Shown here: piece after piece, positions 14,506-34,387 of the stretch
How positions within the stretch are numbered: the first letter of the stretch is position 1
Layout: each line of letters opens with the position of its first letter
NCBI GenBank assembly: GCA_903847405.1
Contig: CAINDP010000034.1
Coordinates: 1-64,000, forward strand
Length of the DNA: 64,000 bases
Reading direction: 5' to 3'
Source of the DNA: an uncultured Myxococcales bacterium
GTDB taxonomy: Bacteria; Myxococcota_A; UBA9042; DTJE01
Position numbers and translations under genes: made by a program
The notes under the pieces: generated by a model
Databases searched by the model: none
What the model was told of the DNA's origin: nothing
Seen by the model: the letters and a program-made list of their open reading frames with translations, nothing else

Positions 14506-14667
14506 CCTGGGGTCCTCCAGGTCGAGGTTGCTGATTGTAGCGGATGTGGGAAGGACCATTTCGTGGACACAGCGCCCTCGTCTCCATAGAATGACGTCAC
14601 AATCCGGGTGCGCCGTGTCCCATTGCCTGTGCAGCGACTGCACCAGCCGCCAGGGAGATCGACCACG

Positions 14668-17600
14668 ATGAATCGACGTCCTGCCGCCTTCACGGGAATC
14701 ACGTTCGCCACCCTGCTGGCGCTGGCGTTTTCGCCGATCGCCTGCGGCGGCGGGTCGCAACGGCCGGACTTCGGCCAGGAAGACGACGTCGAGGTCGCGG
14801 ACCTCGAGGACGTCGAACTCCCGGGCGACCTGCCGGACGGCACGGACGGTGGAGCGGATCCGTCGCGGGACGGCCAGGACCCCGGGCTGGACGGGATCGA
14901 GGACGGGCAGCGGGACGGGACCGGCGTGGACGCAGGGTGCCAGGGCGCGGGCGACTGCGTGGACGATGACCCGTGTACGACCGACCGCTGCCAGGACGGG
15001 GCCTGCAGTCACGACGCCGTCGAAGGATGCGTCGCCTGCGACTTCAGCGACCAGTGCGCCGGCAGCGAACCGGACGCGTGCGTCGCGGGCACCTGCGGCC
15101 TGCGGGCCTCCACCGCGGACGACCCGGCCTGCGGCGCCGGCGATGCCTGCGCGGACGGCCGGACCTGCGACACGGCGTCCCACAAATGCGTCCCCCGGGC
15201 CTGTCTGTGGGCCCCCCGGTCCTGCGACGACGGCGACGCCTGCACCACCGACACGTGCGATGCCCTGGCCGGTTGCCGCCACGACATCCCCGCGAACGCG
15301 CCGCTGACGTGCATCGCCTGCACGACGGACGTCGGGTGCCAGGGCCGCGAGCCCGACAAGTGCACCGTCGTCGTCTGCGACCGGTCCGCCGGACATTGCA
15401 TTTCCGGGCCCCGGAACTGCATCGACGCCGACCTCTGCACCACCGACGCCTGCGACCCGGCCACCGGCTGCTCCCACGTCCCGCTGGCCTGCGCGGACAC
15501 CGACGCCTGCACCACGGACACCTGCCAGGGCGGGCTGTGCCGCCACGTCAGCCTGCCCTGCGACGACGGCAATCCCTGTACCGGCGACAGTTGCAACCCG
15601 GCCACCGGCGCCTGCGTGCATGCGTCCCTGTCCTGCGACGACGCCAACCCCTGCACGGCCGATTCGTGCGTCGGCGGGCAGTGCGTCCACGCGGCCAGCG
15701 CCTGCGACGACGAAAACGCCTGCACCGTCGATTCCTGCAACCCGGCGACCGGTGCCTGCCGCACCGTGGCCCTGTCCTGCGACGACGGGAATCCCTGCAC
15801 CACGGACGCCTGCAGCACGGCCACCGGCTGCACCCACGGCGCCGTCGCCTGCGCCGACGCCGATCCCTGCACCGCCGATTCCTGCATGCCGGCCCTGGGC
15901 TGCGTGCACCAGCGCACGTGCAATTGCCAGACCGACGGCCAGTGCGACGACGCAAACGCCTGCACCACCGAAACGTGCACCCAGGGCGCCTGCGTCTACG
16001 TCCCCCGGGACTGCGCCGACGGCGACGCCTGCACGGTCGACTCCTGCCAGGCCTCCACGGGCCAGTGCGCCCACGCCCCCGACACCTGCGACGACGGCAC
16101 CCCGTGCACCACCGACCGCTGCCAGCCGGGCATCGGCTGCGTCCACGCCGCCCAGGCCTGCGACGACGGCAACGCCTGCACCGCCGACTCCTGCGACGCG
16201 GGGACCGGCGCCTGCGGCCACGTCGCGAAGGCCTGCGGCGACCCCGACCCCTGCACCGTCGACGGCTGCAACCCGGTCACGGGCGCCTGCACCCACGCCC
16301 CGAAGGCCTGCGACGACGGCGACATCTGCACCCTGGACGCCTGCGAGGCGGGGGCCTGCACGCACCAGGCCCTGGCCTGCGACGACGGCGACCGCTGCAC
16401 CACCGATTCCTGCGCCCCCGGGACCGGCTGCGTCCACACCCCGAACGGCGCCAGCGGCTGCGGCACCGCCTGCACGGCCGGCGACGCCTGCGGCGACGGC
16501 AACGCGTGCACCGTCGATTCGTGCCACGCCGCCACCGGCGTATGCATCCACGTCCCGGCGGACTGCGACGATGCCGATGCCTGCACCACCGACGTCTGCG
16601 TCACCGCCACGGGCGCGTGCAGCCACACCGCCGTCGACTGCAACGACCGCAACGCCGGCACCGTGGATACCTGCGCGAACGGCGCCTGCGTCCACGTCTC
16701 GAAGGACTGCGACGACCGGGATCCCTGCACCATCGACAGCATCAACTCGGCCACGGGCGAGTGCCTCCACCGTGCGGTGACCGTCGACGACAACAACCCC
16801 TGCACCTTCGACGAGTGCGACCCCGCGACCGGCGTCGCCCTGCACTTCCTGCGGGCCTGCGACGACGGCAACGCCTGCACCAACGACGCCTGCAACCCCT
16901 CGACCGGAGGGTGCACGAACCTCGCCAGGACCTGCAACGACGGCAACATCTGCACCACCGACACCTGCGACCCGCGGACCGGGTGCCTGTTCACCCCGGC
17001 CACGTGCGCCGACGACGGCCTTCCCTGCACGCGGGATCTCTGCGACCCCACGGCCGGGTGCATCCACCCCGCCACCGCCTGCGACGACGGCGACGCCTGC
17101 AGCGAGGACGCCTGCGAGGCCGCCACCGGCGCCTGCAGCCACCAGGCCCGCGACTGCGGCGATGCCGACGCCTGCACCACCGATGGATGCAACGCCCTGG
17201 GCTGCAACCACGCCGAGGTCCCCTGCGACGACGGCGACCGCTGCACCGCCGACACGTGCGTGCGCCCCGGCGGCACCTGCGCCCACACGGTCCTGGACTG
17301 CAACGACGGCGACCCCTGCACGACGGATTCCTGCAACCCCGCCACGGGGACCTGCCGCCACCTGGCGACGTCCTGCGACGACGGCGACCCCTGCACGCTG
17401 GACGGGTGCCTGTCGAACCTGGGCGGATGCCAGCACGCGCCCCGCGACTGCAACGACAACGACGCCTGCACCCTCGACACCTGCGTCCCCGGCGTCGGAT
17501 GCCGCCACGACCCGGCCAGCGGGTGCCGGACGTGCACGACGGACGCCACCTGCGACGACGGCAACCCCTGCACCACGGAAACCTGCGACACGTTTTCGCG

Positions 17601-19752
17601 CACCTGCACCTACGTGACCGTCACCTGCGGGGTCGGGTCCGACAAGTGCGCCCCGCTGGCCTGCGTCCCCGCACGCGGCGGGTGCGTGCCCGTGGCGAAG
17701 GACTGTGAGGAAGGGAACCTGTGCACCGTCGATTCCTGCGATCCGGCCAACGGCACCTGCCGCCACCCGCCCCGTGTGTGCACGGATGCCAGCCCCTGCA
17801 CGGTGGACGCGTGCAATCCGGCGGACGGAACCTGCCTGCACACCCCCGCCAGTTGCACCGACGACGATCCCTGCACGGTCGACGGCAGTTGCGATTCCCA
17901 GGGCACGTGCTGGCGCACCTCGAAGTGCGACGACCGGGATCCCTGCACGATCGACGCATGCGACCCGGTCACCGGCGCCTGCCAGTACGGACCGATCGAC
18001 TGTGACGACGGCATCCCGTGCACCCTGGACACCTGCGATCCCCGGACCGGCGCCTGCGTGCACCCGTACAAGACGTGCAACGACGACGACCCCTGCACCC
18101 GCGACGTGTGCGACCTCGCGACCGGCCTCTGCGACAACGTCGTCCTCGACTGCACCGACGCGGTTCCCTGCACGCGCGACCGCTGCGTCGACGGCCTGTG
18201 CGTCAACACCTTCGACACCTGCGACGACGGCAATTCCTGCACGACCGACGTCTGCAACCTGGCCACCGGGGCCTGCAGCCACCTGTCCACCAGTTGCGAC
18301 GATTCCAGCCTCTGCACCACGGATTCGTGCGCGGCGGACGGCACCTGCCTCCATGCCCCCGTCGGGTGCAGCGACGGAGACCCGTGCACGACGGACCGGT
18401 GCGACTCGCAGCAGGGCTGCCTGCACGCGACCATTTCGCCCTGCGTCCTGTGCGCGGTTGATGCCCAGTGCCAGGACTCCGACCTGTGCACCACCGACAC
18501 GTGCGACCTGGTGAACGGCGGCGTGTGCGTGAATGCAGCAGCCGACTGCGGGGACGGGGATTCCTGCACGGCCGACACGTGCGACCCGGCCACGGGCAGT
18601 TGCGTGACGCCCCACCCGCCGCAGGACTGCGACGACCACGACCCGTGCACCACCGACGACTGCGAGGCGGGCCGGGGCTGCGTCCACGTGACCCAGGACT
18701 GCCCCCTCAGCGCGGACCCCTGCGTGATCAACATCTGCGATTCCGCGACGGGCCAGTGCGCCCCGATCCCGGCCGGCTGCAACGACTACGACCCATGCAC
18801 GGTGGACAGTTGCGTCCCGGGCAGCGGATGCCTGCACACGGGAGGATGCGACGACGGGAACGCCTGCACGACGGACATCTGCGACGCGACGACCGCCGCC
18901 TGCACCCATGAACCGCGTTCCTGCGACGACTTCGACCCCTGCACGATCGATTCCTGCAACCCGGCGACCGGGTGCCTACACGTCGCGGCCGCCTGCCCGG
19001 ACGACGGCGACCCCTGCACCCTGGAGCAGTGCCAGACGCTTTACGGCGGTTGCCTGACCACGAAGGTCGAGTGCCCGGCCGGGCCCGACGCATGCAGCCT
19101 CGGCACCTGCAACCCGATCACGGGCCAGTGCGGGATGACGCCCCGGGACTGCGACGACGACGTGCCGTGCACCACGGATTCCTGCGACCCGGCCAGCGGG
19201 TGCCGGCACGCGTCGAAGGCCTGCGACGACCACTCGGACTGCACGGTCGATTCCTGCAATCCGTCCACCGGCGCGTGCCTCTTTGCCCCGAAGGACTGCG
19301 ACGACCACGATGCGTGCACGATCGATTCCTGCGACGTTGCGATGGGGGGCGCGTGCCTGCACCAGGCAAAGGATTGCCAGGACGGCAACCTGTGCACGCC
19401 CGACACGTGCAATCCGGCCACGGGCGCCTGCGCCCACGGCCCGGACACCTGCGATGACGGCAGCCTGTGCACGCTGGACTGGTGCAATCCCCTGGCGGGC
19501 TGCCAGCACACCCCCGTCGTGACCTGCCCCAACGACGCCAACGGCTGCACCGAGGAAACGTGCAACCCGTCGTCGGGCCAGTGCGAAACCAGGTTCGCGT
19601 CCTGCGACGACGGCCGGCCCTGCACGCTGGACGGGTGCACCATCGACGCGGGATGCGTCCACCGCGTGGACTGCGACGACGCCGATCCCTGCACGACCGA
19701 CTCCTGCAACCCGGCCGGCCTGTGCATCCACTCGCCGATCCCGGAGTGCTGA
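14668..19752 (+). CDS. Giant Cys-rich repeat lipoprotein (1694 aa)
   Basis: Lipobox LAFSPIACGGG, acidic linker, then about 55 repeats (hand count) of consensus CDDGxxCTxDxCxPxTGxCxHxxxx. Confidence 0.95.
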   Translation: MNRRPAAFTGITFATLLALAFSPIACGGGSQRPDFGQEDDVEVADLEDVELPGDLPDGTDGGADPSRDGQDPGLDGIEDGQRDGTGVDAGCQGAGDCVDDDPCTTDRCQDGACSHDAVEGCVACDFSDQCAGSEPDACVAGTCGLRASTADDPACGAGDACADGRTCDTASHKCVPRACLWAPRSCDDGDACTTDTCDALAGCRHDIPANAPLTCIACTTDVGCQGREPDKCTVVVCDRSAGHCISGPRNCIDADLCTTDACDPATGCSHVPLACADTDACTTDTCQGGLCRHVSLPCDDGNPCTGDSCNPATGACVHASLSCDDANPCTADSCVGGQCVHAASACDDENACTVDSCNPATGACRTVALSCDDGNPCTTDACSTATGCTHGAVACADADPCTADSCMPALGCVHQRTCNCQTDGQCDDANACTTETCTQGACVYVPRDCADGDACTVDSCQASTGQCAHAPDTCDDGTPCTTDRCQPGIGCVHAAQACDDGNACTADSCDAGTGACGHVAKACGDPDPCTVDGCNPVTGACTHAPKACDDGDICTLDACEAGACTHQALACDDGDRCTTDSCAPGTGCVHTPNGASGCGTACTAGDACGDGNACTVDSCHAATGVCIHVPADCDDADACTTDVCVTATGACSHTAVDCNDRNAGTVDTCANGACVHVSKDCDDRDPCTIDSINSATGECLHRAVTVDDNNPCTFDECDPATGVALHFLRACDDGNACTNDACNPSTGGCTNLARTCNDGNICTTDTCDPRTGCLFTPATCADDGLPCTRDLCDPTAGCIHPATACDDGDACSEDACEAATGACSHQARDCGDADACTTDGCNALGCNHAEVPCDDGDRCTADTCVRPGGTCAHTVLDCNDGDPCTTDSCNPATGTCRHLATSCDDGDPCTLDGCLSNLGGCQHAPRDCNDNDACTLDTCVPGVGCRHDPASGCRTCTTDATCDDGNPCTTETCDTFSRTCTYVTVTCGVGSDKCAPLACVPARGGCVPVAKDCEEGNLCTVDSCDPANGTCRHPPRVCTDASPCTVDACNPADGTCLHTPASCTDDDPCTVDGSCDSQGTCWRTSKCDDRDPCTIDACDPVTGACQYGPIDCDDGIPCTLDTCDPRTGACVHPYKTCNDDDPCTRDVCDLATGLCDNVVLDCTDAVPCTRDRCVDGLCVNTFDTCDDGNSCTTDVCNLATGACSHLSTSCDDSSLCTTDSCAADGTCLHAPVGCSDGDPCTTDRCDSQQGCLHATISPCVLCAVDAQCQDSDLCTTDTCDLVNGGVCVNAAADCGDGDSCTADTCDPATGSCVTPHPPQDCDDHDPCTTDDCEAGRGCVHVTQDCPLSADPCVINICDSATGQCAPIPAGCNDYDPCTVDSCVPGSGCLHTGGCDDGNACTTDICDATTAACTHEPRSCDDFDPCTIDSCNPATGCLHVAAACPDDGDPCTLEQCQTLYGGCLTTKVECPAGPDACSLGTCNPITGQCGMTPRDCDDDVPCTTDSCDPASGCRHASKACDDHSDCTVDSCNPSTGACLFAPKDCDDHDACTIDSCDVAMGGACLHQAKDCQDGNLCTPDTCNPATGACAHGPDTCDDGSLCTLDWCNPLAGCQHTPVVTCPNDANGCTEETCNPSSGQCETRFASCDDGRPCTLDGCTIDAGCVHRVDCDDADPCTTDSCNPAGLCIHSPIPEC
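14940..19752 (+). repeat. In-frame tandem repeat array, about 69-75 bp unit, about 55 degenerate copies
   Basis: Recurring TGCGACGACGGC(N)TGCACC(N)GAC(N)TGC DNA pattern; explains long open frames on other frames and the minus strand. Confidence 0.95.
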
Positions 19753-22999: not shown

Positions 23000-24370
23000 C
23001 TATCCCACCGGTTGGCGCATGAAGGTGAGGTACTCGAGGTTCTTGATGCGGTTGTTGAAGATCAGCAGGCCCGCGGCCAGCGTGATGATGCAGGCGCCCA
23101 GGTACCCGAAGCCGTAGAACGACGGACCCAGGCGCAGCGTGATCAACGTCAGCACCGTGTTCGACCCCAGGAACAGCAGGGACAGGAACACGCCCGACCC
23201 GCGGAAATCGAAGTACAGGATCAGGATCAGCAGGATCAGCAGGCCGCCGTGGAAGAAGGCGCCGATCACCGCCACCCGGAACACGGGTGTGTCGGCCGGG
23301 TCGATGCCCATCAGCGACACCAGGTACGGCATCAGCAGGAAGACGCCCGTGGTCACCGCGCCCTGCCAGATCAGCACCGTCCCCAGGGCCTCCCGCAGCA
23401 CGTCCAGCATTTCGGCCTTCCGCTGCAGGATCAGGTCCAGCGGCGCCTTCTGGAGGATCGTGCCGTAGTAGTTCTTGTACCGGAGGTAGAAGTCCGTTTC
23501 GATCCGCAGCAGGAAGATCGCCAGCGTCGGCAGGATGGTGACGTACGCGATGAACATCGCCGAGTCGTACGGGAAGTGCGTGCGGAAATACGAGTGGATG
23601 ACGATGCCGGAACCCGAGTACCAGAAGAGGATCTTGTCGATCCAGATGGCCGTGTTGTAGGCCAGACCGGCGACGACCAGGGACGGGTAGACCTTGAAAT
23701 ACGCCAGGAACTCGAAGTCGAACCCGTGTCCGAACCGGTACTCGGCGAACACCCGGTGCATCAGCAGGACCATCAGCAGGACCTGGCCGACCAGGAAGCC
23801 CATCGCCAGGCCGTCCAGGCCGAAGAACGCCGACAGCAACTGGGACAGCAGGAACGACGTCAGGTACCCCACGGCAAAGGCCAGCACGATGCTGCTGTAG
23901 TCCTTCGCCGCCGACAGGAACAGCATTTCCACCCAGATGACCGACACCGTCACGTACAGCCCCAGGGCCGTCATCTTGTACAGGAACGACAGGTCCGCGA
24001 AGAACAGCGCCAGCGCGCCCGTCACCGTCTGGAACAGCACCGTCACGACCAGGGCGCCCACGAAGGTGGGCACGACCGCGTCCGGGTTCCGCAGGTAGAA
24101 CTGGTCCGACACGTAGCGCGTGACCACCAGTTGCAGCGCGCCCGTGGCGATCAGGCTGAAGCAGTACACGTACACGATGGTCACGGTGAACACGTGGACG
24201 TCCCGATCCTGCATGGACGGCATCGCGAACATCGACAGGGCGGCCAGGCCCATGATCGAAATCAGCCAGGGACCGGAAAAGATGACGGCGGAATAGGTAT
24301 AGAGTTTCAGCCACTCCGCGAACGTCTTGCGCTGCGCCATTTCCCGCAGCCTGAAGCCGATACCTGCCAT
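23000..24370 (-). CDS. pelG: PelG-like exopolysaccharide membrane transporter
   Basis: MAGIGFRLREMAQRKTFAEWLKLYTYSAVIFSGPWLISIMGL N-terminus and polytopic layout typical of PelG; start adjoins pelF stop. Confidence 0.9.
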   Translation of the reverse strand: MAGIGFRLREMAQRKTFAEWLKLYTYSAVIFSGPWLISIMGLAALSMFAMPSMQDRDVHVFTVTIVYVYCFSLIATGALQLVVTRYVSDQFYLRNPDAVVPTFVGALVVTVLFQTVTGALALFFADLSFLYKMTALGLYVTVSVIWVEMLFLSAAKDYSSIVLAFAVGYLTSFLLSQLLSAFFGLDGLAMGFLVGQVLLMVLLMHRVFAEYRFGHGFDFEFLAYFKVYPSLVVAGLAYNTAIWIDKILFWYSGSGIVIHSYFRTHFPYDSAMFIAYVTILPTLAIFLLRIETDFYLRYKNYYGTILQKAPLDLILQRKAEMLDVLREALGTVLIWQGAVTTGVFLLMPYLVSLMGIDPADTPVFRVAVIGAFFHGGLLILLILILYFDFRGSGVFLSLLFLGSNTVLTLITLRLGPSFYGFGYLGACIITLAAGLLIFNNRIKNLEYLTFMRQPVG

Positions 24371-25857
24371 CAGGACCCTCCGCAGAACTGCCGGTACACG
24401 TCGCGATAGGCATCCAGCATGGCGCGCCGGACGTAGTAGCGGCCCACGCGCTCGCGGCCCGCGTCGCCCATCGCCCTGGCCTTGTCCGGATCCCGGAGGA
24501 TGGCCAGGATGGCGTCGGCCGTTTCCCGGGGCGACCGGACGTTGGTGATGTACCCGGCGGGACCGATGGCCTCGTCGTCGCTGCCCGACCCGAAGATCAG
24601 TTCCGCGCACGCGCCCACGCTGCTGGCCACGACGGGGATCCCGACGCGCATGGCCTCCAGCAGGACGAAGGGCTGGGCCTCGCTGATGCTGGTCATGACC
24701 AGGCACGACATGCCCGGGTAGTAGTCCTTCATGTTCACGGCACCGGTGAACTCGAACACGTTCTTCAGGGACAGCACGCGCACCAGGCGCTCGCACTCGT
24801 CGAAGTAGGACTCGTCCTCGTCCCGGCCGCCCAGGATCTGGAAGCGGACCTCGGGCATTTCCTCGCTGACCATCTTGGCCGCGCGGATGAACGTCTTGAC
24901 GTCCTTGATGGGCGCGACGCGTCCCACCATGCAGACCCGCGGCGGACCCCGGCGCCCGTCGGCATGGTCCAGCGCCAGGCCGTCGAACCGCTCGATGTCG
25001 ATGCCGTTCGGGATGATGCCGGTCTTTTCCGGCGGGGCGCCGCCCTGGACCTGCAACTGGCGGTTGCCCTCGTACAGCGTGTAGATACGGGCCGCGTGGT
25101 CGTAGGCGATGCGGGACAGCAGTTCGAACTTCTGCATCCACATGGACTGCAGGGCGCCCACCTGCTTGGTCGGCACCAGGGACGAGGGCTTTTCCCGGTA
25201 GATCCAGTGGGCCTGCGTGATTTCGATCATGCGTTCGTTGGTGTAGATGCCGTGCTCGGTGATGACCAGCGGCGCCCCGGTGCGGACCGACGCCACGGCG
25301 CCCAGGAGGCCGGCGTAGCCCGTGCAGGTGGCGTGGTACAGGCGCGCCTCGGGCAGTTCGGCATACAGGATGCGGAACAGCGGCAGCGCCATGAACCGGA
25401 GGGTCCAGAAGAAGTCGATGAACGAGAACTCGGGGTAGTTCTGCTGGTAGCGCCGGACCAGCAGGTCCCAGAACTCCTTCCCGTGGAACACGTCGTAGGG
25501 CGTGATCGCGTCGCGGTTGGACGGGTCCAGGCGCTCGAGGATCGCCCGCACGCCGGACGTGTCGTTCCGGCCCAGTTCGTCGATGAACCCCTCGAGGGCC
25601 TCCCAGGCCTTCTTCTTCCGGGCGAAGCGGGGGCCGCGCCAGGTGATGGTGTCCATCAGGGGAACCTGCCGGAATTCCAACACGTTCGGCGGAAACTCGT
25701 ACTTGGGTTCCTCGGCGGTTTCCCGGGACACGCCGATGTGGACCAGCGAGAAGGAAACGTCCTTCATGCTGGTGAGGAGGTCGTGGACCCACGTCGACAC
25801 GCCGCCGACGACGTAGGGGTAGGAACCCTCCAGGATCATGCAGACATCGGTCTTCAT
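24370..25857 (-). CDS. pelF: PelF-like GT4 glycosyltransferase
   Basis: MKTDVCMILEGSYPYVVGGVSTWVHDLL; GRVAPIKDVKTFIRAAKMV; SISEAQPFVLLEAM. Confidence 0.95.
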   Translation of the reverse strand: MKTDVCMILEGSYPYVVGGVSTWVHDLLTSMKDVSFSLVHIGVSRETAEEPKYEFPPNVLEFRQVPLMDTITWRGPRFARKKKAWEALEGFIDELGRNDTSGVRAILERLDPSNRDAITPYDVFHGKEFWDLLVRRYQQNYPEFSFIDFFWTLRFMALPLFRILYAELPEARLYHATCTGYAGLLGAVASVRTGAPLVITEHGIYTNERMIEITQAHWIYREKPSSLVPTKQVGALQSMWMQKFELLSRIAYDHAARIYTLYEGNRQLQVQGGAPPEKTGIIPNGIDIERFDGLALDHADGRRGPPRVCMVGRVAPIKDVKTFIRAAKMVSEEMPEVRFQILGGRDEDESYFDECERLVRVLSLKNVFEFTGAVNMKDYYPGMSCLVMTSISEAQPFVLLEAMRVGIPVVASSVGACAELIFGSGSDDEAIGPAGYITNVRSPRETADAILAILRDPDKARAMGDAGRERVGRYYVRRAMLDAYRDVYRQFCGGS

Positions 25858-26891
25858 GGGACCCCCAGCACGGCCGCCAGGTCCTCGAAACGGGGTTCAT
25901 CGGGGAACCGCCGGCGGGCCTCGGCCACGATGGCACGCGCCCCTTCCACGTCCTGCCGCTCGTAGGCGACCTCGGCCAGGGCAACGTGCACCTGCGGGTC
26001 GTCGGGACATGCCGCGGCATGGCGCTGCAGCGCTTCCTCGGCCTTGTCCAGGCGTCCCATCCGCCGCAGCAGCATGCCCGCGTACAGGTCCACCTGCACG
26101 GGCCGGTCCTGGATCAGCAGCGCCTTGTCCAACGCCCGCAGGCCGATTTCATGGAAGTACCGGACCATGCCCTGGTCCAGCAGCCCCGCATCGGTGTAGT
26201 CCAGCACGATGCGCGCCAGTTCGACGTGGCGTTCCGCGGTGGTCGGGCTGCGATCCACCTCCCGCACCAGGCGGAAGATGCGGTCGTTGAACTCCTTTTC
26301 CATTTCCGACAGCGCGTTGCTGGCGTAGTAGCGGATCTCGCGGGACTCGTCGGCCAGGGCGCGCTTGAGCAGTATCACCGCGTCGGCCCGCGGCAGGCGC
26401 GCCAGGGACAGGATCGCGCCGCGCTTGAGGGGGACGTCGTCGCCCGCCAGGATGTCCTTCAGGGGGGACACGTCGATTTCGGCCATCAGGAAACGATCGC
26501 CGTCGGCCTCGGTGCGGACCAGTTCGGGGATGACGGCCGGGTCGAACGAGATGTAGTCCTGGAAATCCTTCAGCAGTTCGCCGCTGCGCTTGGGCGCCGA
26601 CGCGATCAGGGCGTAGACCATCACGAAGCCCAGGAAGCCCAGGAGGGGCAGCGGGAGCATCAGGCACAGGCCGACCACGGCCCAGGCCCGATCGCTGCCC
26701 TTCGAAAAGTCCCAGCGCCGGACCAGCCCCACGGACAGCAGCGACACCGCCAGGAGGTGGGCGCCCAGGGGCAGGAACACGCGCCAGAAGGGCGACAGGC
26801 CGAAGCCGTGCAGCAGGAACACGAAGGCCTCGACCTCGAGGACCGCCTCGAGGACCGCCAGCAGCCGACCTGGCTCGCTGAGGAACCGCAT
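25854..26891 (-). CDS. pelE: PelE-like membrane/TPR-HEAT protein
   Basis: N-terminal TM segments then helical repeat region; position between PelD- and PelF-like genes; overlaps pelF start. Confidence 0.8.
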   Translation of the reverse strand: MRFLSEPGRLLAVLEAVLEVEAFVFLLHGFGLSPFWRVFLPLGAHLLAVSLLSVGLVRRWDFSKGSDRAWAVVGLCLMLPLPLLGFLGFVMVYALIASAPKRSGELLKDFQDYISFDPAVIPELVRTEADGDRFLMAEIDVSPLKDILAGDDVPLKRGAILSLARLPRADAVILLKRALADESREIRYYASNALSEMEKEFNDRIFRLVREVDRSPTTAERHVELARIVLDYTDAGLLDQGMVRYFHEIGLRALDKALLIQDRPVQVDLYAGMLLRRMGRLDKAEEALQRHAAACPDDPQVHVALAEVAYERQDVEGARAIVAEARRRFPDEPRFEDLAAVLGVP

Positions 26892-26954
26892 GCCTTCGAA
26901 CCTCCCAGGGCGGGACGCCTGCCCCGCCGACCAACGCTTCCGACGATACCCCTG

Positions 26955-28391
26955 CTAGCGCCCCTGCCGCAGGTCCATGCGCTCGGCCTCTTCCATCAGG
27001 CGGGCCTCCGACAGCGGCTCGGCGCCCGTGGTGGACGAGATGCCCATCTTCAGGCGCAGGTGGGCGAACCGCGATCCGTAGCCGCCGAACGTCTTCCGGA
27101 ACGACTCGTTGACGCGCGCCGTCACGATCGCGGCCTGGTTGACCGTCGTGGACGGCAGGATGATGCCGAACGACCCGATCTCGCGGTGCACGCCGACGAC
27201 GTCCACGGTCCGCAACAGGCGGCGCAGCAGCACGCCCATCTCGCTGAGCATCAGGCGGCGCTCGTCGGGTCCCAGCGTTTCGTGGTCCAGCAGTTTCACC
27301 AGCAGGTAGGTGCACGAACCGCCGTACCGCCGCACGCGCTGGGCCTCCTCGGCCAGGCGCTGCGTCAGGAAGCGATGGTTGTAGGTCCCCGTGGCCTCGT
27401 CGTCCACGCGGGCGTCCATGGCCGTGTCGAACCGGCGGGCGTCGGTGAGCGTCTTGCCGACCCAGCCCGCGATGGTGAACAGGTGGCTGACCGTCATCGC
27501 GGTCAAGCGCACGAAGGGGATGCGCTCGATGACGATCAGGCCCAGGACCTCGTCCCGGGAGGCGTCCACCAGGGGAGCGCACGCCAGGATGTCGCCGGCC
27601 GAAACGCCCGACGCGTCCTTGACCACGGTCACCTCGCGGCGTTCGACCGCGCGGGCCACGGCCGGGTTCCCCTCGTCCAGGCGATCCTCGAACTCCTCGG
27701 GCGAGGCCCATCCGCGGGACAGGCGCAGGGTGAACACGCGGCCCGCGGCGTTTCCGACCACCTGGGAGGGGACGTCGGCCGCCAGGTACAGGGCGAACTT
27801 TTCCGCGCCGGTGAACCGCGCCACCAGGTCCATGACCGCCGGGTAGGCCTCGTCGGGGCTCAGCGTCTGGAGCCCCTGGGCCGAGGCGTAGAACTCGGCC
27901 AGGGGATCGTCGGCCGACAGGACGCGCTGCTGCAGTTCGTCCTTCACCTTCAGCAGGAGGGTGTTTTCCCGGGCCAGTTCGTCGGTCCGGCGATCCAGAT
28001 CCTTCACGTCGTTCTGCAGACGCAGGACCTCCCGGTTCGCGATTTCGCGGATTTCACCCAGCAGCAGGCCCAGCAGGATGAACAGGTAGGCGGGGATGAA
28101 CTGGCTCCATTCGGCCGTCAGGCGAAGCCCCCCCAGGTCCTTGTTCCAGAAGAGGTATCCAATGTAGACGGCCGCGGACAGGAGGCCCGTGACGAAGCCG
28201 TCGAAGGTGCCGTACCGCGAGGCGATCAGGATCACCAGGAACAGGAAGGGATGCGGACTGACGGTCAGGTACCCCGGATCGTCCGGGAAGAAGGCGGCGT
28301 TCAGCGCCACCAGCATCGCCAGGCCCAGCAATGCCTCGATGAGGCTCTCGATCTGCCGGGAGTACCGGCTGGTCGAAACGCTCTTCGTCAT
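26955..28391 (-). CDS. pelD: PelD-like c-di-GMP receptor (TM-GAF-degenerate GGDEF)
   Basis: Four N-terminal TMs, coiled coil, GAF-like region, C-terminal GGDEF-like domain with EIGSF replacing GGDEF and an upstream RTVD (RxxD). Confidence 0.85.
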   Translation of the reverse strand: MTKSVSTSRYSRQIESLIEALLGLAMLVALNAAFFPDDPGYLTVSPHPFLFLVILIASRYGTFDGFVTGLLSAAVYIGYLFWNKDLGGLRLTAEWSQFIPAYLFILLGLLLGEIREIANREVLRLQNDVKDLDRRTDELARENTLLLKVKDELQQRVLSADDPLAEFYASAQGLQTLSPDEAYPAVMDLVARFTGAEKFALYLAADVPSQVVGNAAGRVFTLRLSRGWASPEEFEDRLDEGNPAVARAVERREVTVVKDASGVSAGDILACAPLVDASRDEVLGLIVIERIPFVRLTAMTVSHLFTIAGWVGKTLTDARRFDTAMDARVDDEATGTYNHRFLTQRLAEEAQRVRRYGGSCTYLLVKLLDHETLGPDERRLMLSEMGVLLRRLLRTVDVVGVHREIGSFGIILPSTTVNQAAIVTARVNESFRKTFGGYGSRFAHLRLKMGISSTTGAEPLSEARLMEEAERMDLRQGR

Positions 28392-28393
28392 GG

Positions 28394-30907
28394 TCACCTC
28401 GCTGCCAGGGCGCGAACGCCCGAATCGGCGCCGCCCTCGCATCCCACGACCAGGATCCGCCGGTCCATCCGGACCACGTGCCGGCCGGACACCGGGTCCG
28501 TCACCACCACTTCGCCGCCATCGGCGCCGGCCTTGCAGCCCGCGGGCAGCCGTACCAGAAGGGCCAGCGGGCCTTCCAACCCCGAGGCCCTCGTCACCGT
28601 CACCCGGGAGTCGCCCGTCGCCGCCACCGTCAGGCCTGTTTCGCCCAGCCGGCGCACTTCGTCCGCGGCCCGCAGCGCCGTCATCGGGCGCAGGTACGGG
28701 AAGCGCCGCTTCATTTCGTCCATCCCGCGGACCCAGGAATCCCGCAGGCGCGGCCACGGAAGGCCGCCCGAGCGCTCGGGGTCCAGGACGTCGTCCGGGT
28801 GGACGAAGTGCGTGGACACGACGACCGCCAGCAGGCCGTTCACCATGCCCACGGCGGCCTCGCCCGTCAGCGACATCCCGGCCCAGGTCCGCGGCAGGTC
28901 CACCAGCGACGGCTGATCCGGGTCCGGGCCGAAGTCCTGCTCGGCCTCGACGTCGGACCCGACGAACACGGACGCCAGCACGCGTACCTGGGGAACGGCG
29001 GCGACCAGGGCACGCTTGCCCGCCGCGTCGATCCAGTCGTTCGGGGGGACGTAGACGACCGGGACGTTCTGGGGGCCGAACGTGGCATCGAACGCCCGGC
29101 CGGCCGCTTCCAGTTGGGCCCGCAGGGCGGCATCGTCCGGGAAGGGGCGGGTGACGCCGCCCGACAGGCCGGGCGAAACGTGGGTCATGCCGTGGAGTCC
29201 CACGGGAAAGTCGTCCGCGACGATCTGCGCCGCCAGTTCCCGCGAAGCGTCCCCGGTCGGTCCCGGCCAGGGCGGGCCGTAGGGCCCCGTGACGCGGTCG
29301 TCATACGTGAACATGGCGAGGAAGGTGGGCCGCGCGCCCAGGCGCTTCGATGCATCCCGGAGGGTCCCGTAAAAATCGTCCCGGTAGAAGGCGGCGTCGG
29401 TCTTGCCCAGGGACGGCACGACGGCGCCGGTCATCGGGAGGGGGCAGTCGTCCACGAATTCCACGGTGGCGGCCAGGATCGGCATGGCCCAGCGGCCCTC
29501 GACGTCCAGCAGCGCCTGCACCATCACGCCCAGGGAGGCGCGGTCGGTCAGTTCGTAGGCGTTCAATGTCGCCACTTCGCCCCGGCCGGACGGGCAGCGC
29601 CACCACATCGGGATGTCGCCCTCGGGCGTGACGGCGTGGGCCGCGACGGTGCAGCGGGACGGCAGAACGGCCCGCAGGCCGGTGAACGCCGGCGTCGGAA
29701 GGTCGATGACGAACCCGCCCAGGCCGGGGAACGAGGCGGCCTCGAAGCGCAGACGGGACGCCTTGTAGGGCACCGGCGCCCCCCCCTCGTGGCCGAAGGC
29801 CGCCGCCAGGGGACGATCGCGGACCGGCAGCACGGACAGGGCCCGGCCGCCACCGGCCGCATGGTTGCGCACCAGGCCGGCCAGGTAGTCGTCCAGCGGC
29901 GAGGGCACCTCGGGCAGGGCCAGGACGATCCCGGCATAGGACGCCAGATCCATGGGGCGCAGGGCCGATGCCGCGCCGACCGCCACGGTGGCCAGCGGCA
30001 CCCCGGCATATGCCGCAGCCGTGCGCACCGCGGCCAGCGCCCGGCGGCTGTCCTCGGCGGCAGGGTCCACCACCACCAGGAGGGTGGCGGGCGCCGCGGG
30101 TCGGCGGGCCAGGGCCGCATGCAGGAACGCGTCCAAGTCCAGGTGCGACACGCGGGCATCCGCCAGCATGTCGTCGGCGGACAGGTAGCGGGACAGGGCC
30201 ATCGCCCCGGTGCTGCTGGCGAACACCAGCGCCGAGGGCGGCAGGACGGCGTCGGTGCGCTGCCCGGACACCAGGACGCGGACGTCCGGGCGGGCCGGCG
30301 AGAACTGGTAGAAATGCCGGGTCACGGAGGAGGTCACCGCCTCGGGGGGACCCAGGGACGGATCCAGGACGCCCACCCGGAACTTCGCCGGGTCGTCCGT
30401 CCACCAGGCCTCGTAGCGCACGCCCAGGGCCAGGAAGGCCCGGTTGACGACGTCCGCCGCCAGGAAGGTTCCCGTCCCGGCGTCCTGGAAGGCGCCGAAC
30501 GCCCCGATCACCACGACGCGCACGCCCGACTCGGAGGTTTCCCGCAGGAATTCCACCAGGTCGCGGGCACGGGGGATGCGGCCGTCCTTGAAGCCCGTGA
30601 TCACGGCCCGGGCGCCCGCGACGTCGGTCGCGGACGGGGGGCCGCCGGCGGCATCGCGCCACTCCACCAGGAATCCCTGGCGGCGCAGCGCATCCGCCAC
30701 GGCGCCCGACAACGGGTTGTGCTGGACGGTCGAGCCCTCGGTGGAATCGAACAGGCAGACCACGCGATCCCCGGGGACCAGCGGGTTGACGGCGACGGAA
30801 CGAAGCGCCCGGGCGCCCGCCGGAACCGCGAAGACCACCGCAGCCGCCATGACGGCAGCGACGCGCCTCCCTCGGTCACCGGAAAGCCCTGAAGGCGCCC
30901 GCACCAT
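28394..30907 (-). CDS. DUF2194/PelA-deacetylase-like secreted protein
   Basis: Signal peptide; polysaccharide-deacetylase-like signatures VEFVDDCP and GLHGMTH; located directly upstream of pelD. No recognisable N-terminal PelA hydrolase. Confidence 0.65.
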   Translation of the reverse strand: MVRAPSGLSGDRGRRVAAVMAAAVVFAVPAGARALRSVAVNPLVPGDRVVCLFDSTEGSTVQHNPLSGAVADALRRQGFLVEWRDAAGGPPSATDVAGARAVITGFKDGRIPRARDLVEFLRETSESGVRVVVIGAFGAFQDAGTGTFLAADVVNRAFLALGVRYEAWWTDDPAKFRVGVLDPSLGPPEAVTSSVTRHFYQFSPARPDVRVLVSGQRTDAVLPPSALVFASSTGAMALSRYLSADDMLADARVSHLDLDAFLHAALARRPAAPATLLVVVDPAAEDSRRALAAVRTAAAYAGVPLATVAVGAASALRPMDLASYAGIVLALPEVPSPLDDYLAGLVRNHAAGGGRALSVLPVRDRPLAAAFGHEGGAPVPYKASRLRFEAASFPGLGGFVIDLPTPAFTGLRAVLPSRCTVAAHAVTPEGDIPMWWRCPSGRGEVATLNAYELTDRASLGVMVQALLDVEGRWAMPILAATVEFVDDCPLPMTGAVVPSLGKTDAAFYRDDFYGTLRDASKRLGARPTFLAMFTYDDRVTGPYGPPWPGPTGDASRELAAQIVADDFPVGLHGMTHVSPGLSGGVTRPFPDDAALRAQLEAAGRAFDATFGPQNVPVVYVPPNDWIDAAGKRALVAAVPQVRVLASVFVGSDVEAEQDFGPDPDQPSLVDLPRTWAGMSLTGEAAVGMVNGLLAVVVSTHFVHPDDVLDPERSGGLPWPRLRDSWVRGMDEMKRRFPYLRPMTALRAADEVRRLGETGLTVAATGDSRVTVTRASGLEGPLALLVRLPAGCKAGADGGEVVVTDPVSGRHVVRMDRRILVVGCEGGADSGVRALAAR

Positions 30908-30974
30908 CCGATCGTCCTCCGTCACCGGTTCCGTCCGGGTCCCGCACCGCGCCGGACCCGGGGACTGGCCCCGG

Positions 30975-33137
30975 TCACGCCTTTTCGCGGCCGTCGCGGG
31001 CCAGGGCACGCAGGCGCAGGACCACCAGCAGGACGAGGACCGGCGTGAGGATGAAGAAGACCAGGTAGGCCATGTTGTACCGCGACGGCGCCGGGGCCGG
31101 CTGCGGCACCTCCAGCACGGGCACCATCTTGCCGTCCTTTTCCTCGAAGCGGACCTTGGCCGGGTCGAACTGGGCGACCGGGTCGGCCTGGGTGGGCGGC
31201 AGCAGGACCTTCAGTTCGTCGTCGGAGGTGGCGGCGGCCAGCGTGCCGCGAACCCACTCCACCTTGCCGGGCGCGTACAGGTGCGGCGCGGCCAGGCCGA
31301 TCTCGTCGTCCGACCGGCCCGTGACCGCCAGGACCTTGCGCCCGCCGTCGGGCATGCGCACCAGGGACAGGAAGCCCGCCGTGTTCAGGATGTCCCCCCG
31401 GCCCTGGATTTCCCGGCCGGACAGTTCCTTCGGCAGGGTCGTCGACCACAGGGGATCCGGGAGCATCGCCCCGAGGGGCCCGACGACCAGCAGGTTCAAG
31501 GTCGACTTCTGGGCGGCCGTCAACTGCTTCGCGGACGTGAACAGGAGGTCCACCCAGTTGGGCGACCGCAGGCTCTGGCTGAGGTAGGCGACGATGTTGA
31601 AAGCCGCCGACATCGCGCCGTCGCTGAGCGGGTCCATCACGACCACGCCCAGCCTGTCGAAGCGATTCCACCGCAGGAACATGTAGGGGTAGTTCGCCAG
31701 CGTTTCGTCGGACGCCGAATCCACGGGCAGGTACAGCAGGGTGTCGTTGTGCAGCGTGAACCAGGCCATTTCGGGGTGGTTGTAGTAGCAGTCCGGATCC
31801 CCGATATCCAGGAACAGTTCCATTTCAAAGGTCAGGAAGCGCGTGTTCAGGTACTGCAGCGGGATCTTGATGTCCCAGGTGTTCCGGGGCGCGGTGTCCT
31901 TGGTCAGGCGCAGGCTGCGGACCGGCTCCCCGTTGACCTTCACCAGCAGCGAGGAGGACTGCGGCAGCAGCAGTTCGCTGTGGCTCATCGCGACGCGCAG
32001 GAACGCGCCGTCCTTCACCTTGCCCACGAAGGGGTTCGGCATCGTGAACGTGATGGAATGGTAGAACTTTCCGCGGGCCTGCAGGTCGGTCATCTTGAGG
32101 TCCTGCAGACGGACCATGAAGGCCGCGTCCTGGCGCCCGTCGGCCGCCGCCTCGAAGACCGGGGGCTTGTCGAACGTCACCGAGGGCCCCTTCAGGTTGC
32201 GCACGGTGGCCGGGGTCTTCAGGTGGTCCGACACCAGCTTGAGGGCCGCGTCGTCACGGCCGGTGGCGACCAGCAGCCGGCGGTAGGGGTTGAAGGGCGA
32301 CTTGAACTCCATGAGGGCGCCGCCGGGCTCGCCGGCCACGGTGTCCAGGGGCAGCGGAATGCGCCAGGGCGAGCCGGTCAGACGCTTCACGAACTCCAGC
32401 CCGCCGGCCACGATGATCTGGCGCGACTTCAGGTCCGCCGGATCGACCCGATCGGCCGCGACCACCCGGAACCCGCCCGCGCCCAGGCCCACGTCCTGGC
32501 CCAGGACCACCGCCAGGGCGCCGACCAGGTCCAGCTCGGCCGCCGTCGGGGCCGACGGGACCACGATGACCGCGTGGATCTTTTCCTTGTCCTTCGTGTA
32601 CAGCAGGTCGGGATTCGCGTAGTCCGACGGGAACTTGTCCAGGTCCGGGACGATTTCCTTTTCGGTGTAGGGCACCTGCAGCCGGGATTCCTTTTCCAGC
32701 AGGGTCCACAGCGCCGGGTTGTGCACGTCGTCGCACAGGTCCTTCAGGTCGGACCGCATCTTGACGACCAGCGTCAGGACGTTCATCCCGCCCTTCAGCA
32801 GCTTCCCGGGAACCTGCACCACCAGCTGGGCGTTCCGCAGGTTGCCGTTGTCCAGGTAGACGCTTTCGATGGGACTGCCGTTCACCTGGACGCTCAGCGT
32901 GGACAGCTGGCGCACGACGATCGGCGTGTGCGAGAACCGCAGGTCCAGGGTCGCCGGCTCCGGGAACTCCCAGTCCTCCGACAGCTCGAACCAGAATTCC
33001 TTGGTGACGTAGACACCCTTCACCGTCGAGTTCGCGCCGGACATGAAGTCGATGGTCACGCCTCGGGCGAAGGCGGACAGCGACCCCAGGAGGGTCATCG
33101 CGAACATCGCGGAAACCAGCAAGCGTCGAAACTTCAT
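30975..33137 (-). CDS. BcsB-family (cellulose synthase periplasmic subunit-like) protein
   Basis: Signal peptide; LSTLSVQVNGSPIESVYLDNG and LLVATGRDD elements; single C-terminal TM (YLVFFILTPVLVLLVVLRLRAL). Confidence 0.75.
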   Translation of the reverse strand: MKFRRLLVSAMFAMTLLGSLSAFARGVTIDFMSGANSTVKGVYVTKEFWFELSEDWEFPEPATLDLRFSHTPIVVRQLSTLSVQVNGSPIESVYLDNGNLRNAQLVVQVPGKLLKGGMNVLTLVVKMRSDLKDLCDDVHNPALWTLLEKESRLQVPYTEKEIVPDLDKFPSDYANPDLLYTKDKEKIHAVIVVPSAPTAAELDLVGALAVVLGQDVGLGAGGFRVVAADRVDPADLKSRQIIVAGGLEFVKRLTGSPWRIPLPLDTVAGEPGGALMEFKSPFNPYRRLLVATGRDDAALKLVSDHLKTPATVRNLKGPSVTFDKPPVFEAAADGRQDAAFMVRLQDLKMTDLQARGKFYHSITFTMPNPFVGKVKDGAFLRVAMSHSELLLPQSSSLLVKVNGEPVRSLRLTKDTAPRNTWDIKIPLQYLNTRFLTFEMELFLDIGDPDCYYNHPEMAWFTLHNDTLLYLPVDSASDETLANYPYMFLRWNRFDRLGVVVMDPLSDGAMSAAFNIVAYLSQSLRSPNWVDLLFTSAKQLTAAQKSTLNLLVVGPLGAMLPDPLWSTTLPKELSGREIQGRGDILNTAGFLSLVRMPDGGRKVLAVTGRSDDEIGLAAPHLYAPGKVEWVRGTLAAATSDDELKVLLPPTQADPVAQFDPAKVRFEEKDGKMVPVLEVPQPAPAPSRYNMAYLVFFILTPVLVLLVVLRLRALARDGREKA

Positions 33138-33355
33138 GCGTCACCCCCTGATCGGTCTGGCCGCAGCCCACGGAGGAGGAGGCGATCGCCCCTGGCGAAT
33201 CGTTCCCCGCGCGCCCGCATGGGCTGTCAGCGTTCGAACTCCGTGCGGGGGATTATAGACGCGCACGCAACCGAGGTAAAGCCTCAACATCCAGACAGGT
33301 TTCGGATGGTTGCATCGACCGACATCGGGAGGGAAGTCGCGGGTGGGGCACGGGA

Positions 33356-34387
33356 TCAGGCGCGAACCGGGAATCGGCGGCGCAGCATCGGGATCAGCGC
33401 ACCCAGGGCCAGAAGCATCAGGGCCAGGGGCGAACCGGCGCCGGGCGAGGACTGGCAGCCGCTGCCGCCGGAGGGCGTGGCGGCGGCGCTCTCGGCGGCG
33501 CCGGGAGTGGCCGGGGGCGTCGTGACGTCGCCGTCCTTGCCGGTCGTGATCACGTCGCCGGTGTTGACCGGCACGCTGGTGTCCGGTTCCGGGGTGCCGG
33601 TGGCATACCCGATGGCCGCCCAGCCCGTGGGCAGGCAGACCTTCTCGGCGGTCGGGGCCGGGCAGTTGCAGGTGTCGCACGGGCAGTCCGGCGTGTCCGG
33701 GGCGCACGCGCAGGCCGGGCAGGCGCAGTCGCCCCCGGTCGTCCGCTGGATGCACTCGAATCCGGCGGCGCAATCGGCGTCGGCGATGCACGCCGTTTCC
33801 TTCGGCTGGCACCACGAACCCGTCGTCTGGCACGTCGGCTCGGTGGGCTCGGGGCAGTCGCAGGCGGGGCACTCCGAATCCGGGGCGCAGGGCGCGCAGG
33901 CGCAGGACGTCCCGCTGCAGACTTCCTCGGCCTTGCAGGCCCAGCCGTCCTTGCAGTCGCCGTCGGCGGCGCACTGGACCGGGTGATACACGCAGAAATT
34001 GCCGGTGGTCGGCGTGCAGGTGAACTGCACGTCGCACGACGGGCACTCGCAAGGCAGGCACTCGCCCTCGGCCGGGCAGGCGCAGGTGCAGGGCGAGCAT
34101 CCGCCCGAGACACAGGGAATTTCGACCGGGTCGCACGTGAATCCCGTCGGACAGTCCGCGTCTGCGGCGCAACTGCCGTCCCAGGGCGCGGCAACGCAGA
34201 ACCCCTGGACGTCGCAGGCGGTCGCGTCCGGGCAGTCGGAATCGGGTGCGCAGGCCGGGACGCTGCAGGGGGCCGCCATGCAGACCTGGCCCTTGGCGCA
34301 GTCGCTGTCGACCGTGCACGGCGCGTCGGCTCCGCGAGCCGGGACGGCCAGGAACAACAGGGTCGCGAGCGTCAGCGTGAACTTCAT
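33356..34387 (-). CDS. Secreted Cys-rich protein with MYXO-CTERM-like tail
   Basis: Signal peptide; repeats of CxxDSDCxxGxxC type; tail GGSGCQSSPGAGSPLALMLLALGALIPMLRRRFPVRA. Confidence 0.8.
   Translation of the reverse strand: MKFTLTLATLLFLAVPARGADAPCTVDSDCAKGQVCMAAPCSVPACAPDSDCPDATACDVQGFCVAAPWDGSCAADADCPTGFTCDPVEIPCVSGGCSPCTCACPAEGECLPCECPSCDVQFTCTPTTGNFCVYHPVQCAADGDCKDGWACKAEEVCSGTSCACAPCAPDSECPACDCPEPTEPTCQTTGSWCQPKETACIADADCAAGFECIQRTTGGDCACPACACAPDTPDCPCDTCNCPAPTAEKVCLPTGWAAIGYATGTPEPDTSVPVNTGDVITTGKDGDVTTPPATPGAAESAAATPSGGSGCQSSPGAGSPLALMLLALGALIPMLRRRFPVRA

Follow-up and report, generated by a model that had tools for sequence, protein, structure and literature searches.

The closest described counterparts of the locus reported here are pel clusters of several kinds and the Bcs system. 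The canonical pelABCDEFG type, known from P. aeruginosa and including the Azonexus, Caballeronia and Pseudoalteromonas loci, is characterized by a PelD-E-F-G core order, a PelD with an I-site, a GH114-deacetylase fusion, the PF24604 barrel of PelB, and PelC. In Gram-negative bacteria the link from PelDEFG to PelA, which is responsible for deacetylation, and to PelBC, which serve outer-membrane export, has been described as unclear (PMC13254593). The Gram-positive pelDEADAFG type, exemplified by B. cereus, combines PelDEFG with a DUF2194/PelADA protein without the hydrolase domain. Stand-alone PelADA in pel clusters is known from Gram-positives (PMC7112168, PMC13254593), and the B. cereus enzyme de-N-acetylates alpha-1,4-GalNAc oligomers and, by prediction, makes direct contact with PelG (PMC13254593). 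A DUF2194 gene is also found in a diderm pel cluster, that of Cetobacterium (Fusobacteriota), which has the order GH114-PelD-DUF2194-PelE-PelF-PelG. In the Bcs system (BcsA-BcsB-BcsZ-BcsC) of E. coli, the apex of BcsB (CBD1/FD1) binds TPR 1 of BcsC, so that the synthase complex holds on to the outer-membrane channel (PMC11379886). Neither the systematic operon survey (PMC7112194) nor the Gram-positive pel papers mention BcsB in pel clusters, and we found no paper placing PelF/PelG and BcsB in one cluster; Whitfield and Howell's 2021 review may describe one.

The window, by which we mean the whole 64,000-nucleotide stretch of DNA that was analysed, sits on a 96.5-kb contig of a 5.65 Mb genome that is about 97% complete. 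Its minus strand carries, at 23000-33137, a tight six-gene unit in the order BcsB-like, DUF2194, PelD, PelE, PelF and PelG. The starts of PelD (taken as 26955-28391) and PelG (taken as 23000-24370) were corrected from the start codons seen, and with these the intergenic gaps from the BcsB-like gene to PelG are 67, 2, 63, -4 and -1 bp. The features of the system are as follows:

33252..33280, minus strand: promoter-like site TTTACC-17-TATAAT, sigma-70-like, the presumed operon promoter upstream of the BcsB-like gene
30975..33137, minus strand: BcsB-like periplasmic subunit, 720 aa (PF03170, E 7.4e-46)
28394..30907, minus strand: DUF2194, predicted PelADA-type polysaccharide de-N-acetylase, CE26-like (PF09960, E 1.6e-52)
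26955..28391, minus strand: PelD-like protein with N-terminal hydrophobic segments, GAF, degenerate GGDEF and an RxxD (RTVD) I-site (domain searches and alignment)
25854..26891, minus strand: PelE-like TPR/HEAT protein (domain search; tblastn match to the PelE position in other pel clusters)
24370..25857, minus strand: PelF GT4 glycosyltransferase (NF038011, E 1.1e-141, 473 bits; cut-off 100)
23000..24370, minus strand: PelG inner-membrane polysaccharide exporter (PF16933, E 4.3e-134), the sole PelG found in a search of the genome
L062:10951-12885, another contig of the same genome: predicted TPR/beta-barrel exporter, 644 aa, directly after a second DUF2194 gene

The preliminary description had named the six clustered genes in this order, and all of them are present, with Pfam or NCBI-family HMM matches for the BcsB-like, DUF2194, PelF and PelG proteins. 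The same gene order recurs in other genomes whose BcsB-like proteins are 70-94% identical to that of the window, and in a second Myxococcota family (f5) at 33-36% identity; its occurrence in independent metagenome-assembled genomes (MAGs) from two families rules out an assembly artefact. Across the six genes, differences from the congeners are concentrated at third codon positions, as strongly in the BcsB-like gene as in PelF. The search for promoter-like sites upstream of the BcsB-like gene returned one, compared with a mean of 0.0 (sd 0.1) in shuffled sequences. This site lies about 115 bp ahead of the first ATG and is kept in the congeners G191 and G031 amid otherwise diverged upstream DNA, so that the BcsB-like gene is probably the first of the transcription unit.

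Compared with the systems above, this one is Pel-type by its synthase core and forms a new variant where it crosses the envelope. It shares with canonical pelABCDEFG the core gene order, the PelD I-site and a deacetylase, whereas it has no PF24604 barrel, no PelC-like gene in the cluster and no GH114-deacetylase fusion; instead, its first gene is BcsB-like and it has a separate, non-homologous TPR/barrel exporter. The PelADA without a hydrolase domain is shared with the Gram-positive clusters, from which the system differs in gene order and in having a BcsB-like subunit and an outer-membrane exporter. DUF2194 is shared with the Cetobacterium cluster, which, in contrast, has no BcsB-like gene. 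With Bcs it has in common the BcsB homologue, which in f5 adjoins the TPR/beta-barrel exporter; however, the cluster contains neither BcsA nor BcsZ, GT4/PelG stand in place of the GT2 synthase, and the barrel lacks sequence homology. PelG also belongs to a different fold class from BcsA.

Several lines of evidence indicate that the 720-aa protein is a true, full-length BcsB homologue. Beyond the PF03170 match (E 7.4e-46), its profile aligned with those of cellulose BcsBs over 595 columns (hhalign, probability 100, E 4.7e-43). The AlphaFold model has an N-terminal hydrophobic segment, two repeats of a jelly-roll plus a Rossmann/flavodoxin-like domain, and a C-terminal TM helix, matching the two CBD-flavodoxin repeats and C-terminal TM anchor of BcsB. 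Foldseek recovered E. coli BcsB chains as the best matches (E 3.2e-31, probability 1.00), with low TM-scores because domain orientation is poorly predicted in a model of modest confidence (pLDDT 65.7). A phmmer search of the PDB with the single sequence gave no match, and a profile search of the same database did match. Thus, the BcsB fold anticipated in the preliminary description, for which structure prediction had been proposed, is recovered by PF03170, hhalign, AlphaFold and Foldseek alike. One congener carries another BcsB-like copy on a 3.4 kb contig (G031:C16, L081); this copy is 86% identical to that of the window and may reflect a strain mixture or a duplication.

The DUF2194 protein, earlier described as PelA-deacetylase-like, likewise proved to belong with a characterised enzyme: it matches the B. 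cereus PelADA structure (PDB 9ZAU, CE26) with E 4e-40 in phmmer and E 1.8e-105 with a profile, which rules out its being a mere domain of unknown function. Its motifs DD, HGxxH and HFxHPDD (here HFVHPDD) are invariant in an alignment of twelve relatives; the histidines at these positions in PelADA are metal ligands or serve as the acid, and mutating them abolishes deacetylation (PMC13254593). The protein is therefore, as judged from these motifs, a PelADA-family de-N-acetylase in which the catalytic motifs are preserved. In the PelD-like protein the GGDEF motif is gone; what remains is the RxxD inhibitory-site motif, a predicted c-di-GMP site common to all the PelDs aligned, including those of f5, four Pseudomonadota and one Fusobacteriota homologue. 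The PelE-like TPR protein sits between PelD and PelF, as in other pel clusters, and the family matches of PelF and PelG make their assignments unambiguous. The GH166 hydrolase domain of PelA, sought as PF03537/GH114, is absent from the cluster; an unlinked PF03537 gene is found elsewhere in the genome (G000:C171). This GH114-type gene (L093:4022-5430), a possible Pel hydrolase, adjoins a small PilZ-looking gene. GH114 genes occur in most of family f1, to which this genome belongs, and also in two genomes without PelG.

We then turn to the parts that a canonical system would supply. The absence of BcsA noted earlier for the window extends to the whole genome, in which a TIGR03030 search returned nothing near the cut-off. 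The PelB barrel model PF24604 has no match in the genome, and finds PelB in another member of the Myxococcota (G090), indicating that it works in this phylum; no gene for a PelC-like lipoprotein lies among the six operon genes. These negative searches argue against a canonical PelB or BcsA hidden elsewhere in the genome, and no complete canonical pelA/pelB/pelC set competes with the cluster, given that no canonical PelB was found. The earlier remark that PelB and PelC are not visible thus holds for the window, and for PF24604 genome-wide, but it fails if taken to mean that there is no exporter, as another contig carries the gene for an unrelated TPR/beta-barrel exporter. There (contig C200, L062:8837-12885), a second DUF2194 gene is followed by the exporter gene, which overlaps it by 4 bp. 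A search for DUF2194 found a second copy in every f1 genome with the pel cluster, and in f1 this PelADA-like gene travels with the exporter gene. In f5, the place between the BcsB-like gene and pelD is taken not by DUF2194 but by the gene of a TPR protein whose C-terminus is an OMP barrel. Even when restricted to their last 270 residues, the f1 and f5 exporters align with probability 99.85 (hhalign, E 1e-29), which indicates that their orthology extends well past the TPR region. The predicted export channel is accordingly present in both families, in the operon in f5 and at a second, unlinked locus in f1. The DUF2194 gene of f5 lies away from the pel cluster and adjoins an MMPL-family transporter gene (L067:5951-10841, L070:5512-10303).

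The AlphaFold model of the f5 orthologue has a TPR solenoid and 16 predicted strands, and the protein ends in F; Foldseek ranked E. coli BcsC first (E 6e-14), with a TM-score of about 0.4 for a model built on three sequences (pLDDT 72.6). Comparison of barrel-only profiles detected no sequence homology to the PelB and BcsC barrels, ruling out the exporter as a sequence homologue of either, and the barrel gave only weak PgaA-barrel/OMP matches. The likeness to BcsC and PelB is therefore one of predicted architecture only: TPRs followed by an outer-membrane beta-barrel.

We surveyed 284 Myxococcota genomes, finding PelG in 21, BcsB in 42 and DUF2194 above the cut-off in 11. The genomes with DUF2194 above the cut-off, with the exporter and with a BcsB-like gene next to pel are the same 11 of the 284, counted on a few related families in which the events are not independent. 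The exporter was recognised by its barrel-only profile, whose matches include three genomes that had no part in building it (G065, G110 and G206); the remaining 10 genomes with PelG gave no match. The association of exporter with PelG gives a Fisher p of 1.8e-14 in a test that ignores shared descent. The BcsB-like gene and PelG lie on one contig in 9 of the 11 genomes; in G110 the BcsB-like gene and then the start of DUF2194 stand at a contig end, and in G206 the BcsB-like gene itself does. All the genomes of the clade seen here are draft assemblies, the majority labelled as MAGs in their titles. Within family f1, PelG, the BcsB-like gene, DUF2194 and the exporter are all present in 8 genomes and all absent in 5, some of the latter being 95-97% complete. 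A tblastn search found no BcsB-like gene in the other PelG genomes examined; among those sampled, some have genes of the GH114, TPR or PelB type in its place. Outside the phylum, none of 19 PelG records in the plasmid collection (Pseudomonadota, Fusobacteriota) matched the BcsB-like protein, and the viral_contigs set held no relatives.

The BcsB-like proteins of the pel clusters form one clade (support 98/100), apart from the cellulose-linked BcsBs, and the PelF and PelG of those clusters likewise group together (100/100), divided between f1 and f5 in the same way. Given the joint presence and absence of the genes and the concordant trees, the association of Pel with the BcsB-like protein looks like one old event, after which the genes were inherited or lost together. 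The hybrid of a Pel synthase with a BcsB-type subunit that had been put forward in the preliminary description is thus upheld by homology, by synteny in two families, by joint presence and absence (11 of the 284 genomes keep the set together) and by the trees; what that description missed is the system's own TPR/beta-barrel exporter.

The composition of the hybrid, in its genes, motifs and co-conservation, is well supported, and on it we build a functional model in which the identity of the polymer, the physical contacts and the order of steps are our inference. On balance we favour a c-di-GMP-controlled Pel-type synthase, in a Gram-negative lineage of Myxococcota, with a periplasmic bridge and an outer-membrane channel on the BcsB-BcsC plan rather than the PelA-PelB-PelC plan. 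PelD would sense c-di-GMP through RxxD and, with PelE, activate PelF; the GalNAc-type chain polymerised by PelF would cross the inner membrane through PelG. Held in the membrane by its anchor, the BcsB-like protein would stand over the PelG exit, bind the chain via its carbohydrate-binding domains, and so physically guide the Pel-like polymer, while anchoring the N-terminal TPRs of the TPR/16-strand beta-barrel exporter. The DUF2194/PelADA enzyme would de-N-acetylate the chain en route. Since the BcsB-like/TPR-barrel gene pair of f5 mirrors the E. coli BcsB-BcsC pair, a bridge of the same kind may, by analogy, be mounted on PelDEFG, with PelADA-type deacetylation on the way out.

The gene neighbourhoods could also be read to mean that the BcsB-like protein serves as a carbohydrate-binding scaffold in the periplasm, presenting the nascent chain to DUF2194 or retaining the polymer at the cell, with no link to the exporter. 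The position of the BcsB-like gene directly upstream of DUF2194 in f1 would fit this, as would a Chloroflexota EPS cluster in which BcsB-family genes lie beside a deacetylase without a cellulose synthase. However, the neighbour of the BcsB-like gene in f5 is the exporter and not DUF2194, and the exporter is strictly co-conserved, so that we regard a scaffold of this kind as rather unlikely. BcsB usually partners a GT2 synthase, in other Myxococcota too, and one might therefore see here an ordinary Pel operon and, independent of it in function, a BcsB-like protein serving an unlinked GT2 synthase for another polymer. The genome without BcsA, the lead position of the BcsB-like gene behind a conserved promoter-like site, the joint presence and absence, and the concordant trees together make this highly improbable.

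As for the product, the match of DUF2194 to an alpha-1,4-GalNAc de-N-acetylase with its active-site motifs kept, the score of PelF far above the equivalog cut-off, and the GH114 (PF03537) gene elsewhere in the genome all argue against the secretion of a non-Pel polymer, not based on GalNAc, through relatives of PelF and PelG. That the PelFG clade is distinct from canonical PelFG would nevertheless be consistent with such a polymer, and Bundalovic-Torma et al. caution that divergent loci may make a different one (PMC7112194); we consider it unlikely.

If the bridge on the BcsB-BcsC plan is correct, the part that links PelDEFG to the envelope appears here to be homologous to BcsB, a protein with a mode of action derived from structures (apex to TPR 1 of BcsC). 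The system suggests that BcsB can work without BcsA, and that envelope-crossing parts can be swapped between different polymer machines. More tentatively, BcsB could be a general envelope-bridging adaptor and not specific to cellulose; in this lineage an oligomer of it on a GT4/PelG machine would tether a dedicated TPR/barrel channel and replace PelB-PelC, synthase and envelope-crossing modules being interchangeable; we hold this to be possible but somewhat short of an even chance. For annotation, Pel clusters without PelB/PelC may use a BcsB-like protein and an unlinked TPR/barrel exporter.

BcsB-family genes were also seen in other settings. On a plasmid of Leptolinea sp. HRD-7 (Chloroflexota; L082:13492-20344), a Wzx/Wzy-type EPS cluster that has neither BcsA nor PelFG contains two tandem BcsB-family genes together with a Wzz-GGDEF fusion and a polysaccharide deacetylase, a further case of BcsB away from cellulose. 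At three loci (L100:3451-9016, L103:4319-9383 and L104:4215-8875), BcsB adjoins GT2 synthases with MshEN and DUF4388, no PilZ being reported. A further BcsB-family gene (L077:7832-10081), with no glycosyltransferase among the scanned neighbours, is weakly placed beside the pel-type BcsB clade. Next to the operon in the window, 33356-34387 encodes a protein with Myxo-type Cys-rich repeats and a MYXO-CTERM signal, and downstream of the operon 14608-19752 is a very large Cys-rich ORF with repeats of the CDDGNxCTTDSC type.
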